Shown: one piece after another, positions 29,968 through 32,621 of the stretch
Layout: the number at the start of each line of letters is the position of its first letter
Position numbering within the stretch: the first letter of the stretch is position 1
From: Actinobacteria bacterium IMCC25003
GTDB lineage: Bacteria > Actinomycetota > Actinomycetes > Nanopelagicales > Nanopelagicaceae
DNA: 64,000 nucleotides
NCBI GenBank assembly: GCA_002284855.1
Contig: CP015603.1
Span: forward strand, 558,001 to 622,000
Direction: 5' to 3'
The notes under the pieces: model-generated
Database searches by the model: none
What the model saw: the letters and a program-made list of their open reading frames with translations, nothing else
Told to the model about the DNA's origin: nothing
Program-made: the position numbers and the translations under genes

Positions 29968-30567
29968 ATGACTTTGCTGCACATCCTCGATCTGCTCTCG
30001 ACCTTTGTCTTCGCCTTGGTCGGCGCTCGCGTAGCCGCAGATCGTGGACTTGATTACGGCGGAATCGCATTTATCGCAGGCATTGCATCGGTCTCAGGCG
30101 GAACGCTTAGAAATATCTTCTTGGGGCTACGTCCAATCTGGGTAATCGATCCATGGATTATCGCCAGCATTCTTACCGCAGTTCTGATTACCTTGGTTTT
30201 TAGGCGCGTGACACATGTTGGCAAGACTCTCTTAATCATGGATACATTCGGTCTCGCTGTGGCAACGATGTCAGGAACGCAGCTCTCCTTCGAAATGGAT
30301 GTCACCTGGTTTGCCGCGATCATTCTGGGCGTCATCACAGCGGTAACAGGTGGACTTTTACGCGATGTTCTCTGCCAGCTCGAGCCAGTCTTGCTTCACC
30401 GCGAAACGATCGGAACCTGCACCATGATGGGCGCAATAACCTTCGTGGCTCTACATCAATTTAGTTTTGGCCAAAATACCTGTGCCATCGTTGGTGGGGC
30501 AGTTGTCATTCTCACTCGTGTAGTGTCAATTCAATTTGATCTGCACTTACCAAAATTCCAGAAGTAA
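29968..30567 (+). CDS. TRIC-type cation channel family protein (UPF0126)
   Basis: A 199-residue integral membrane protein with about six to seven helices and an internal repeat. The two half-motifs are ASVSGGTLRNIFLGLRPIW and AVTGGLLRDVLCQLEPVLL, which mark the paired glycine-rich TRIC/UPF0126 halves. Bacterial relatives form trimeric potassium-permeable pores. The ATG at 29968 follows a 122-base gap from the divergent glucosidase gene. Its end is 11 bases before the photolyase-like gene. The physiological role is not known. Confidence 0.88.
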   Translation: MTLLHILDLLSTFVFALVGARVAADRGLDYGGIAFIAGIASVSGGTLRNIFLGLRPIWVIDPWIIASILTAVLITLVFRRVTHVGKTLLIMDTFGLAVATMSGTQLSFEMDVTWFAAIILGVITAVTGGLLRDVLCQLEPVLLHRETIGTCTMMGAITFVALHQFSFGQNTCAIVGGAVVILTRVVSIQFDLHLPKFQK

Positions 30568-30577
30568 ATGGTTTGAG

Positions 30578-31789
30578 ATGTCCTTTAAGGAACTCGACAT
30601 ATATGGACACGCCCTCGACGTTATTGAAGAGTATTTTCAAGGCCTTTTTTCAGGCGAACTCGGTCTTAGTTCTATTCGGGGAGGGCAGACGGCTGCAAAT
30701 AAGGCACTTGCCGAATTAGATATCACCCTATATGCAGACCAACGTTCTGAAGTGCTGCCGCTAGAACGCCGCGGCGCAACAGGTTTATCTCCATACATCA
30801 GACATAACTTGCTCACTCTAGAACAGGTCTACCGAGCTGTAAAAGACGCCCCTTACAAAGATCGCGAAAAATTTCGAGATGAACTTTTTTGGCAAGAGTA
30901 TGCCCGTCACTTGTACGCTCGAGTCGGTGTTCAACTCTTCGAAAACCTTCGCTTTGATGCAAATTGGGAGACCGAAGGCGATGGTTGGAATCGCGATATG
31001 CATTGCATTGATCAGGTGATGCAGGAACTTGAGACTGATGGCTGGCTGGTGAATCAAACACGAATGTGGCTTGCTTCTCATTGGACAGTTCGTAATAACA
31101 AGGGCTGGTTACATGGCCAGGAAAGAATGTACCGAGGACTGATTGATGGGTCTCGCGCTGCCAATCTTTTAGGATGGCAATGGACTGCAGGCGCTGGAAC
31201 AGGAAAACCCTATGGATTTGCCCGATGGCAGGTTGAAAAACGCGCCCCTGGAATTTGTTTCAAATGCCCACTCAAAAAAGCCTGTCCAATCGAAGAATTT
31301 CCAGATGAAGTTTCTCTGCAACAGCGTAAGAAAAATCCGTTGCTTGACTCAGATATTGATAATGCACAGAGCTCAGGACCTGCCGAGCCCGAGATTCATG
31401 CTCAAGCAAAATTTGTTTTACTCACGGTAGATTCATTAGGAGATGCAGATCCAGCGCTAGCGGCAAACCCTGATTTGCCAGTTGTGTTTGTATTTAATGA
31501 AGAGGCGCTTCGAAAATTGCAGCTGAGTACAAGACGCATCGGTTTCTACATTGAGACCCTGAAGGATTTATCGACTCGCAGAAATCTCACCGTACTCCTT
31601 GGCAACCCATATAAATTTGCCGAAGAGAATGGTGTCGCAATTACCTTTGCGCCCGTTCCTTCATTTAAGAAGTTCAAAAATGTTGCTGAGCTCTATCCAT
31701 TCCCGTGGCTAAGAAGGCCACAAGGGGGCTCGGTAAGGAGTTATTCGTCTTGGCGAGGGAAAATCGATCCAAGTTCTAAGAAGAACTAA
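30578..31789 (+). CDS. Photolyase/cryptochrome-like protein with apparently permuted domains
   Basis: A 403-residue protein from the ATG at 30578. Residues about 35-225 match the FAD-binding helical domain of photolyases: ATGLSPYIRHNLLT, DELFWQEYARHLY, DGWLVNQTRMWLAS, LIDGSRAANLLGWQWTAG. In normal photolyases this domain is C-terminal. Here an alpha/beta segment with antenna-domain features follows it: DSLGDADPAL at 285-294, VVFVFNEEALRKLQ and RRIGFYIETLKDL. Between them lies CFKCPLKKAC (Cys227, 230, 236), with a fourth Cys at 143. The likely role is light-driven DNA repair or light sensing. The FAD domain is certain; the permutation and metal site are inference. Confidence 0.82.
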   Translation: MSFKELDIYGHALDVIEEYFQGLFSGELGLSSIRGGQTAANKALAELDITLYADQRSEVLPLERRGATGLSPYIRHNLLTLEQVYRAVKDAPYKDREKFRDELFWQEYARHLYARVGVQLFENLRFDANWETEGDGWNRDMHCIDQVMQELETDGWLVNQTRMWLASHWTVRNNKGWLHGQERMYRGLIDGSRAANLLGWQWTAGAGTGKPYGFARWQVEKRAPGICFKCPLKKACPIEEFPDEVSLQQRKKNPLLDSDIDNAQSSGPAEPEIHAQAKFVLLTVDSLGDADPALAANPDLPVVFVFNEEALRKLQLSTRRIGFYIETLKDLSTRRNLTVLLGNPYKFAEENGVAITFAPVPSFKKFKNVAELYPFPWLRRPQGGSVRSYSSWRGKIDPSSKKN

Positions 31790-31790
31790 G

Positions 31791-31863
31791 TGGGTTGTGA
31801 GGGACTCGAACCCCCGACCCGGTGATTAAGAGTCACCTGCTCTACCAACTGAGCTAACAACCC
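31791..31863 (-). tRNA. tRNA-Lys (anticodon CTT)
   Basis: The reverse strand gives a full cloverleaf with acceptor GGGTTGT/ACAACCC and D arm TAGCTCAGTTGGTAGAGCA. The anticodon stem GGTGA/TCACC encloses CTCTTAA, giving anticodon CTT. The T arm contains GGTTCGAGTCC. The discriminator is A and CCA is not encoded. It starts one base after the photolyase-like gene's stop. Confidence 0.96.
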
Positions 31864-31952: not shown

Positions 31953-32621
31953 ATGTCTCGCTGGGAAATACGGATAGCCGCACTTATTGGTGCGATGGTT
32001 GTTGGGTTTACCCCGTCGGCTACGACAGCGGCAGAACAGCAACCAGGGCTGGCTACAGCAGTACTTGAGACTCTTCCGGTCAAAGGGCGTGCACCAAAGA
32101 CGGGGTATACACGTGAGCAATTTGGGCAAGCCTGGGCTGATGTTGACCGCAATGGATGCGATACCCGCAACGATATTTTGAATCGGGATCTCACCGATGT
32201 TGTCTATAAACCGGGTACTCGAAATTGCGTCGTTCTATCTGGAACGTTGGTCGATCGATATTCAGGCGAGACCATCAACTTCGTTCGTGGAAATATCAGC
32301 AGCATGGAAGTTCAGATTGATCATATTGTTGCTCTGTCGAATGCTTGGCAGACAGGTGCGTTCAAGTTATCAGCAGAACAACGCAAGGCGCTCGCCAATG
32401 ATCCACTCAATCTCTTTGCAGTCAAAGGTCGACTGAATTCTCAGAAGGGCGATGGCGATGCCGCAACGTGGCTGCCACCTTTAAAGAGTTTTAGGTGCGC
32501 CTATGTAGCACAACAAATTGCGGTGAAGGCTAAGTATTCATTGTGGGTTGTGGCTCCCGAGAAAGCAGCGATGGTTTCAATCTTGGCGAAGTGCCCAACG
32601 CAGAAAGTTCCTGTTAGTTAG
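31953..32621 (+). CDS. Secreted HNH-type nuclease (DUF1524/GmrSD-like)
   Basis: A 222-residue protein with a signal peptide (core AALIGAMVVGF, likely cleavage near ATTAAE around residue 27). The mature part matches the secreted HNH/DUF1524 proteins of actinobacteria: YTREQFGQAWADVDRNGCDTRNDIL, the catalytic VQIDHIVALSNAWQTGA, and DPLNLFAVKGRLNSQKGD. The Asp-His pair and the Asn/His-like ending form the metal site. It probably degrades extracellular DNA for nutrients. Its 3' end overlaps the convergent SHMT-like gene by eight bases. Confidence 0.88.
   Translation: MSRWEIRIAALIGAMVVGFTPSATTAAEQQPGLATAVLETLPVKGRAPKTGYTREQFGQAWADVDRNGCDTRNDILNRDLTDVVYKPGTRNCVVLSGTLVDRYSGETINFVRGNISSMEVQIDHIVALSNAWQTGAFKLSAEQRKALANDPLNLFAVKGRLNSQKGDGDAATWLPPLKSFRCAYVAQQIAVKAKYSLWVVAPEKAAMVSILAKCPTQKVPVS

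Follow-up and report, generated by a model that had tools for sequence, protein, structure and literature searches.

A photolyase with reversed domain order in a streamlined actinobacterium

The stretch of DNA analyzed here (the window; 64,000 nucleotides) covers positions 558001-622000 of the genome of Actinobacteria bacterium IMCC25003, a streamlined actinobacterium whose 1.35-Mb genome is a single contig. On its forward strand, an open reading frame that runs from an ATG at 30578 to a stop codon at 31789 (30578..31789, + strand) encodes a circularly permuted photolyase of 403 amino acids. The FAD-binding catalytic domain comes first (residues 1-253; 30578..31336, + strand), as delimited by Pfam family PF03441 and by VIA-align comparison of the full predicted model, and an α/β antenna domain of Rossmann-like fold comes last (residues 276-398; 31403..31771, + strand), as delimited by VIA-align and HHalign. 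The gap between these two structural matches is a new joint between the domains (residues 254-275; 31337..31402, + strand), which is weakly conserved in an alignment of relatives (A1). The genes on either side belong to other families: a membrane protein gene of the glycine-transporter family lies upstream (29968..30567, + strand; PF03458, E = 4.1e−31), and a tRNA-Lys(ctt) gene lies downstream (31790..31863, − strand). Beyond the tRNA-Lys gene, positions 31953-32621 encode a protein with a GmrSD_C nuclease-type domain and, as judged by eye, a possible signal peptide.

A preliminary description of this DNA, made from the letters of the sequence, placed FAD-domain motifs of photolyases in the first half of the protein, and we found them there. 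Pfam family FAD_binding_7 (PF03441) matches residues 135-210 (E = 3.8e−10; 39.9 bits, cut-off of 27) and is the sole Pfam match of the full-length protein, while phmmer aligns residues 33-209 with residues 206-399 of the A. nidulans photolyase (1owl; E = 3.4e−12). The standard order of photolyases and cryptochromes, in which the antenna domain is N-terminal to the FAD domain, is found neither in the window protein nor in its aligned relatives. As the description had also held, no antenna domain precedes the FAD domain: the longest in-frame extension adds 14 codons (from a TTG at 30536), and the preceding gene ends at 30567, so the upstream space is too small for such a domain. Nor was a separate antenna gene found: a search of the same genome with PF00875 (E ≤ 0.001) returned only one place (C1:107848-108306), which is the N-terminal half of a standard photolyase. 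The swapped order proposed in the description is supported by profile comparison and structure prediction, and it recurs in the aligned relatives. Because the same order is seen in relatives from many genomes, an artifact or misassembly of a single genome was ruled out. As a list of parts, read from sequence, profiles, and predicted structure, the 403-amino-acid protein is a circular permutation of a photolyase.

The C-terminal domain was assigned with the help of profile comparisons. We compared diverse actinobacterial C-terminal domains (26 rows; 24 without duplicates, with unchanged HHalign scores) with 33 canonical antenna domains; 10 sequences in which the start motif was not found had been dropped from this standard set, and four FeS-BCP sequences were kept apart. 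The two profiles match over 72 columns (HHalign probability, 96.1; score, 58.1), and column shuffling gave a maximum score of 21.3 in 60 shuffles. Control scores for the same actinobacterial domains were 14.0 against FAD domains, 18.0 against FeS-BCP antennas, and 16.0 against ArgG, which we take to be a protein with a related fold. With a closer set of relatives (A3), the score was 37.9 (maximum of 19.6 in 60 shuffles). The C-terminal domain of Deinococcus relatives forms a bridge, matching canonical antennas over 135 columns, through the "VFTPF.RaW" segment (probability, 98.0), and matching the actinobacterial C-terminal domain as well (probability, 97.6-99.2). Among the antenna elements that had been recognized by eye in the C-terminal segment, VDSLGDADPAL, VVFVFNEEAL, and RRIGFYIETLKDL indeed align with the canonical antenna from its start onward, but the placement of FAPVPSFKKF as the counterpart of "FTPF.R.W" was mistaken. 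In our reading of the Deinococcus bridge alignment, that counterpart is the C-terminal YSSWRGKI, and we infer that the YSSWRG end of the antenna domain is equivalent to the point at which the canonical interdomain linker begins.

Pfam support for the relocated antenna domain is weak. PF00875 has no match at E ≤ 10 in the full-length window protein. It also failed to match three further actinobacterial proteins at full length and one of the two Deinococcus proteins scanned. When the C-terminal piece of the window protein is searched alone, PF00875 reaches an E value of 0.11-0.13, which is under the cut-off. Among the 69 actinobacterial C-terminal domains searched alone, 33 match at E ≤ 10 (best, 0.0046) and 36 do not, and the C terminus of the Deinococcus AJ005 protein (residues 300-395, profile positions 2-110) has an E value of 7.2e−4, also under the cut-off. 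A search of PDB sequences with the C-terminal domain profile gave one match at E ≤ 10, a ribosomal protein (E = 0.93). In the 69-sequence alignment, some residues of the C-terminal part are invariant.

Confident AlphaFold models were obtained for the full protein (pLDDT, 86.3; pTM, 0.89) and for residues 266-403 alone (pLDDT, 84.7). A fold comparison of the C-terminal domain had been proposed as a check of the antenna assignment, and its outcome agrees with that assignment. When Foldseek candidates for residues 266-403 were aligned with VIA-align, 48 of the 50 rows were photolyases or cryptochromes, with alignments that begin where their N-terminal antenna domain begins; the remaining rows were one photolyase-like mitoribosome assembly factor and, at rank 50, UspE (Z = 6.7). 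The best match covers 127 residues (3zxs_C, residues 1-163; Z = 9.5), the Thermus photolyase is matched at residues 2-145 (1iqr; Z = 8.2), and three of the matched ranges extend to residues 287-302. Plain Foldseek was weaker: nothing was found at E ≤ 0.001, and ranks 1-5, which are class II photolyase (best E = 0.0057; probability, 0.99), are followed by a mixture of Rossmann-like and other proteins. Because Z values near 8 are middling, the sequence evidence matters for the antenna assignment. For the full model, residues 1-253 align with PhrB (5kcm_A; Z = 14.8, 246 residues aligned), and residues 1-252 align with residues 158-419 of the Thermus photolyase (2j07; Z = 13.7). A mitoribosome assembly factor of Trypanosoma brucei (PDB 7pub_Ff/7pua_Ff) was matched by the two photolyase domains, arranged there in the usual order, with the antenna part at 205-416 (Z = 7.1) and the FAD part at 451-798 (Z = 12.7).

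The matched ranges also locate the cut. The Thermus photolyase (420 amino acids; plasmid copy) is covered from 158 to 419 by window residues 1-252 and then from 2 to 145 by window residues 276-398 (1iqr). Likewise, the A. nidulans photolyase is covered from 184 to 472 by window residues 1-251 (1owm) and then from 3 to 159 by window residues 276-399. These ranges, which give the first and last aligned residues only and in some entries, including 1iqr, begin with a stray earlier residue (25-416), place the break inside the interdomain linker and make the new joint about 22 residues long (254-275).

The FAD domain carries four cysteines that share alignment columns with the four cysteines of FeS-BCPs, as judged from an alignment with DPRP-type sequences from genomes of the same genus. 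Cys143 (31004..31006, + strand) lies in the column of the first FeS-BCP cysteine, and the other putative [4Fe-4S] ligands form a Cys227-x2-Cys230-x5-Cys236 pattern (31256..31285, + strand). To count residues, we reduced 100 actinobacterial rows, six of them duplicates, to 94 distinct rows; all four positions are Cys in 94 of the 94, and in all four Deinococcus rows. The corresponding spacing figures in the window protein are 84, 2, and 5, versus 86-89 residues between the first and second cysteines, 2 residues to the third, and 12-15 between the third and fourth in FeS-BCPs, according to PMC3204975.

The active-site residues were compared in the same 94 rows. Glu102, Trp105, Trp177, Asp190, Asn196, Trp200, and Trp202 are invariant, and Trp137 is present in 92. 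Glu102 and Trp105, which belong to an ELFW motif (residues 102-105; 30881..30892, + strand; 94/94), are presumably the counterparts of Glu274 and Trp277, which contact the CPD in the E. coli enzyme. Similarly, we take Gln106 and Ser192 to occupy the positions of E. coli Arg278 and Asp374. Gln and Ser replace Arg and Asp in all 94 actinobacterial rows, while Deinococcus keeps Arg and Asp; FAD handling may therefore differ from that of class I enzymes. Within an NQTRM motif (residues 159-163; 31052..31066, + strand), Asn159 and Met163 align with His366 and Leu370 of PhrB; the former position is Asn in 94 of the 94 rows and the latter is Met in 90. His366 is essential for (6-4) repair in PhrB, and the roles of His366 and Leu370 used here are those given in PMC4619345. 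Judged by sequence, the substrate-determining residues Asn159 and Met163 are of the CPD type, and together with the invariant active-site residues they indicate CPD repair.

We consider it probable that the gene as a whole is best explained as a circularly permuted CPD photolyase, with FAD and a [4Fe-4S] cluster, that arrived as cargo next to tRNA-Lys. Sequence, profiles, and predicted structure show a standard photolyase cut within its interdomain linker and rejoined so that the catalytic FAD domain precedes the antenna-fold domain. The protein very probably holds FAD and, through Cys143, Cys227, Cys230, and Cys236, a [4Fe-4S] cluster, as the FeS-BCP columns suggest. Its most likely activity, predicted from its residues, is repair of CPDs, with blue light driving electron transfer from reduced FAD. 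Glu102, Trp105, and Trp202 would contact the lesion, Asn196 would lie on the FAD side, Trp200, Trp177, and Trp137 would form a tryptophan relay, and Asn159 and Met163 would provide the CPD-type pair, the roles being transferred from the E. coli enzyme and PhrB. The probable role of the antenna-fold domain is to close off the FAD site, perhaps without any harvesting pigment; this is the least certain step. In a genome that also has class I-like and DPRP-type (6-4) photolyase genes, the permuted enzyme may fill a special niche, for example repair of single-stranded DNA, which has been reported for NewPHLs.

Alternatively, the protein could be a circularly permuted (6-4) photolyase, in which the Fe-S cluster marks an FeS-BCP-like function. 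The four cysteines in FeS-BCP columns and the fact that the full model has its best fold match in PhrB agree with this possibility, as does an mBio 2022 paper (PMC9426592), which infers (6-4) repair for cyanobacterial Phr4, Phr5, and Phr6 and describes a phr4 mutant that is sensitive to UV-C but not to UV-B. The actinobacterial proteins, however, have the CPD-type pair in place of His366 and Leu370, a DPRP-type photolyase is already encoded elsewhere in the host genome, and our tree separates the reverse-order proteins from FeS-BCPs; we therefore regard (6-4) repair as rather unlikely. An assignment to (6-4) photolyases from the cysteines alone was set aside because of Asn159 and Met163. It is very unlikely, in our view, that the protein is instead a cryptochrome-like blue-light sensor without repair activity. 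Although the earlier description allowed for a sensor, the antenna domain is short, and the gene adjoins no conserved DNA-repair partner in most loci, a pure sensor would not need Glu102, Trp105, and Trp202, which are invariant, and no cluster of neighboring genes holds a fixed position in more than six loci.

Finally, the C-terminal domain might be an unrelated Rossmann-like domain that was recruited to seal the FAD pocket, in which case there would have been no permutation. The weak, under-cut-off Pfam matches and the plain Foldseek result at E ≤ 0.001 would fit such a recruitment, as would the PPAT and Usp proteins that come near photolyases in the fold comparison. Yet the profile match is specific (58.1 with antennas, as opposed to 14.0 with FAD domains and 16.0 with ArgG), the VIA-align rows are photolyase or cryptochrome antennas in 48 of 50 cases, and the Deinococcus bridge to canonical antennas has a probability of 98.0. 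We consider this recruitment highly improbable.

The surroundings of the gene indicate how it may have reached its present place. In a relative from the same genus (G018), the glycine-transporter gene and the tRNA-Lys gene that flank the photolyase gene in the window are also present, but only 3 bases separate the flanking matches, versus 1217 bases in the window; the segment missing from that relative, which represents inserted cargo, is 30568..31784. A second genome (G028) has a different 386-amino-acid ORF at the same site. In a third (G019), the transporter gene is followed by two ORFs that resemble, by eye, a response regulator and a sensor kinase, and the tRNA was not found in the contig piece. 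From these comparisons (loci L177, L178, and L183 with window positions 30568-31863), the site beside tRNA-Lys is a cargo site, and the photolyase gene is probably a recent arrival there. It is one of three photolyase genes in the 1.35-Mb genome, the others being class I-like (C1:106996-107568) and DPRP-type (C1:1051005-1051634). CofH, which was over the cut-off in 4 of the 9 genomes searched, was not found in this genome; an 8-HDF pigment is therefore unlikely here, unless it is imported. Across loci, no conserved gene partner was seen within four genes, in contexts that are incomplete for the many short contigs. The largest cluster of neighbors comprises 12 loci at mixed positions, and a standard photolyase is located four genes away in four loci.

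Relatives of the gene were found in many genomes. A scan of GTDB genomes with two peptide patterns gave 414 stretches that encode a relative, and the best 80 of the 414 were examined; among these 80, the closest titled relative bears the label Candidatus Nanopelagicaceae. We aligned 68 of the 80 loci and excluded those that by eye were truncated, shifted, or like another row (L068, L072, L076, L080, L086, L093, L094, L098, L099, L100, L104, and L107). In the family search across actinobacteria that the preliminary description had suggested, the whole-protein profile matched 26 of 396 sampled Actinomycetota genomes at E ≤ 1e−40, the window's own included. Relatives were found in 4 of 61 sampled genomes of the window's genus (own included) and in 3 of 39 other genomes. 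They keep both halves, with 62-64% identity within the genus, where three other copies were sampled, and 45-51% identity in other families. Copies in records labeled Clavibacter, Aquiluna, Rhodoluna, and others reach 66-73% identity to the window protein. Transfer of the gene between genera is likely, with the qualification that many of these records are MAGs whose labels are uncertain. In one scan of viral contigs, the 69-row alignment (A2) gave 40 pattern matches and no relative, and a phage search gave eight records, none with 80% query coverage.

In Deinococcus sp. QL22, the two domains are encoded by two plasmid genes with a 4-base overlap (L147:896-2187). The gene for the FAD domain (257 amino acids) comes first and the gene for the antenna domain (173 amino acids) second, which is the same order as in the fused protein. 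We inferred a tree of 41 FAD domains: 10 of the 69 rows of alignment A2 (the window protein and every eighth row), 3 other actinobacterial sequences, 4 from Deinococcus, 5 NewPHL-like, 4 FeS-BCP, and 15 standard sequences. The canonical proteins lie on one side of a branch (100/99), and the reverse-order proteins fall between them and the FeS-BCPs. In the free tree, the reverse-order proteins are not one clade (two changes), and a constraint that makes the 22 reverse-order rows one clade is not rejected (p-AU = 0.182). Because the FeS-BCP branch is very long (3.96), its position is unsure.

We conjecture, with more doubt than confidence, that all reverse-order photolyases (the actinobacterial, Deinococcus, Phr4 to Phr6, and NewPHL forms) descend from one rearrangement that passed through a two-gene stage, and that Deinococcus sp. 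QL22 and Synechococcus still retain this stage. If this were true, the "short photolyases", which have been regarded as the ancestral, antenna-less form of all cryptochromes and photolyases, would be derived, permuted enzymes, and the family could no longer be rooted on them; in CPD-type and (6-4)-type enzymes alike, the four-cysteine Fe-S site would be an ancient trait. Where the antenna domain has only moved, as in the actinobacterial family, the argument from simplicity loses force. The value of the window protein lies in an antenna domain, once called missing, that was moved rather than lost. The actinobacterial family is a natural circular permutation across a two-domain flavoenzyme whose split-gene form is still living. 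It also pairs a probable Fe-S site with an active site of the CPD type, a pairing that would uncouple the cluster from (6-4) specificity. Because the permuted photolyase recurs in many aquatic actinobacteria, it bears on DNA repair in sunlit bacteria.

Among known systems, FeS-BCPs (PhrB and CryB) have Fe-S cysteines in homologous columns and provide the closest solved folds for the window FAD domain. They differ in their standard domain order, in the active site with His366 and Leu370, and in an N-terminal DPRP domain (PF04244), for which no match is listed in the window protein at E ≤ 10. Class I CPD photolyases (A. nidulans 1owl and Thermus 1iqr) are the best sequence matches of the FAD domain and have the antenna fold and the lesion-contacting residues in common with the window protein, but they have the standard order, lack the Fe-S cysteines, and differ in the residues that correspond to Gln106 and Ser192.

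SPLs are another point of comparison. In Xu et al. 2021, SPLs reportedly have no α/β domain and were proposed as ancestors of the family; some are said to have four cysteines, and a Rhodococcus fascians member is said to have an Fe-S cluster and to repair CPDs. Like SPLs, the window protein has no N-terminal α/β domain, and its FAD domain is class I/III-like. Unlike SPLs as described, the window family has an α/β domain, at the C terminus. The descriptions suggest that the actinobacterial permuted family is SPL. In other papers, such proteins are mentioned as a possible origin (PMC9498864), and an SPL gene is named in S. elongatus (PMC9178010).

The inverted topology itself has precedents. NewPHLs (Emmerich et al. 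2020) are reported to consist of an N-terminal catalytic domain and a C-terminal domain, and the window protein shares this inverted topology. Five alphaproteobacterial proteins in our data are presumably NewPHLs. None of the five has the C-terminal cysteine cluster; the first site is Cys in one of them (L114). The C-terminal domain of these NewPHL-like proteins gives no clear profile match to the actinobacterial one (HHalign probability, 0.2-1.2). Their Z-domain matches the Deinococcus C-terminal domain (probability, 45; score, 31.5; maximum of 18.2 in 59 shuffles) and, weakly, canonical antennas (probability, 34; score, 29.7; maximum of 20.3 in 59 shuffles). An antenna identity of the Z-domain, reached via Deinococcus only and by this weak match, is suggestive. 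Among the five plasmid loci, one of which (L116) has no annotation, two (L114 and L143) have the NewPHL-like gene next to an AarF/ABC1/UbiB kinase gene. CPD activity of NewPHL on single strands is reported in papers that cite the original work, and NewPHLs or SPLs are credited with an "inverted domain topology" in an AEM 2026 paper (PMC13274461).

A close precedent is cyanobacterial, and we compared it by description. In PMC9426592, Phr6 and Phr4/Phr5 of Synechococcus/Cyanobium have a "reverse domain order" and four cysteines, with the FAD domain first and the photolyase domain last, as in the window protein. The cysteine spacing that we computed from the positions given there (C169, C254, C257, and C263) is 85-3-6, versus 84-3-6 in the window protein, and phr4/phr5 are sometimes two adjacent genes, like the split pair of Deinococcus sp. 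QL22. There, the (6-4) function of Phr4/5/6 was proposed from the cysteines, and the phr4 mutant lost survival under UV-C, not UV-B; the actinobacterial family differs in its CPD-type residues. Among the matches listed in our literature searches (photolyase domain order or permutation; freshwater actinobacteria), no title concerns an actinobacterial reverse-order form. The reverse-order architecture is thus already in print for other bacteria, and the window protein is not a new kind of photolyase. What our analysis adds is evidence that the actinobacterial members carry the supposedly missing α/β domain at the other end of the protein and that a split-gene version occurs in Deinococcus.
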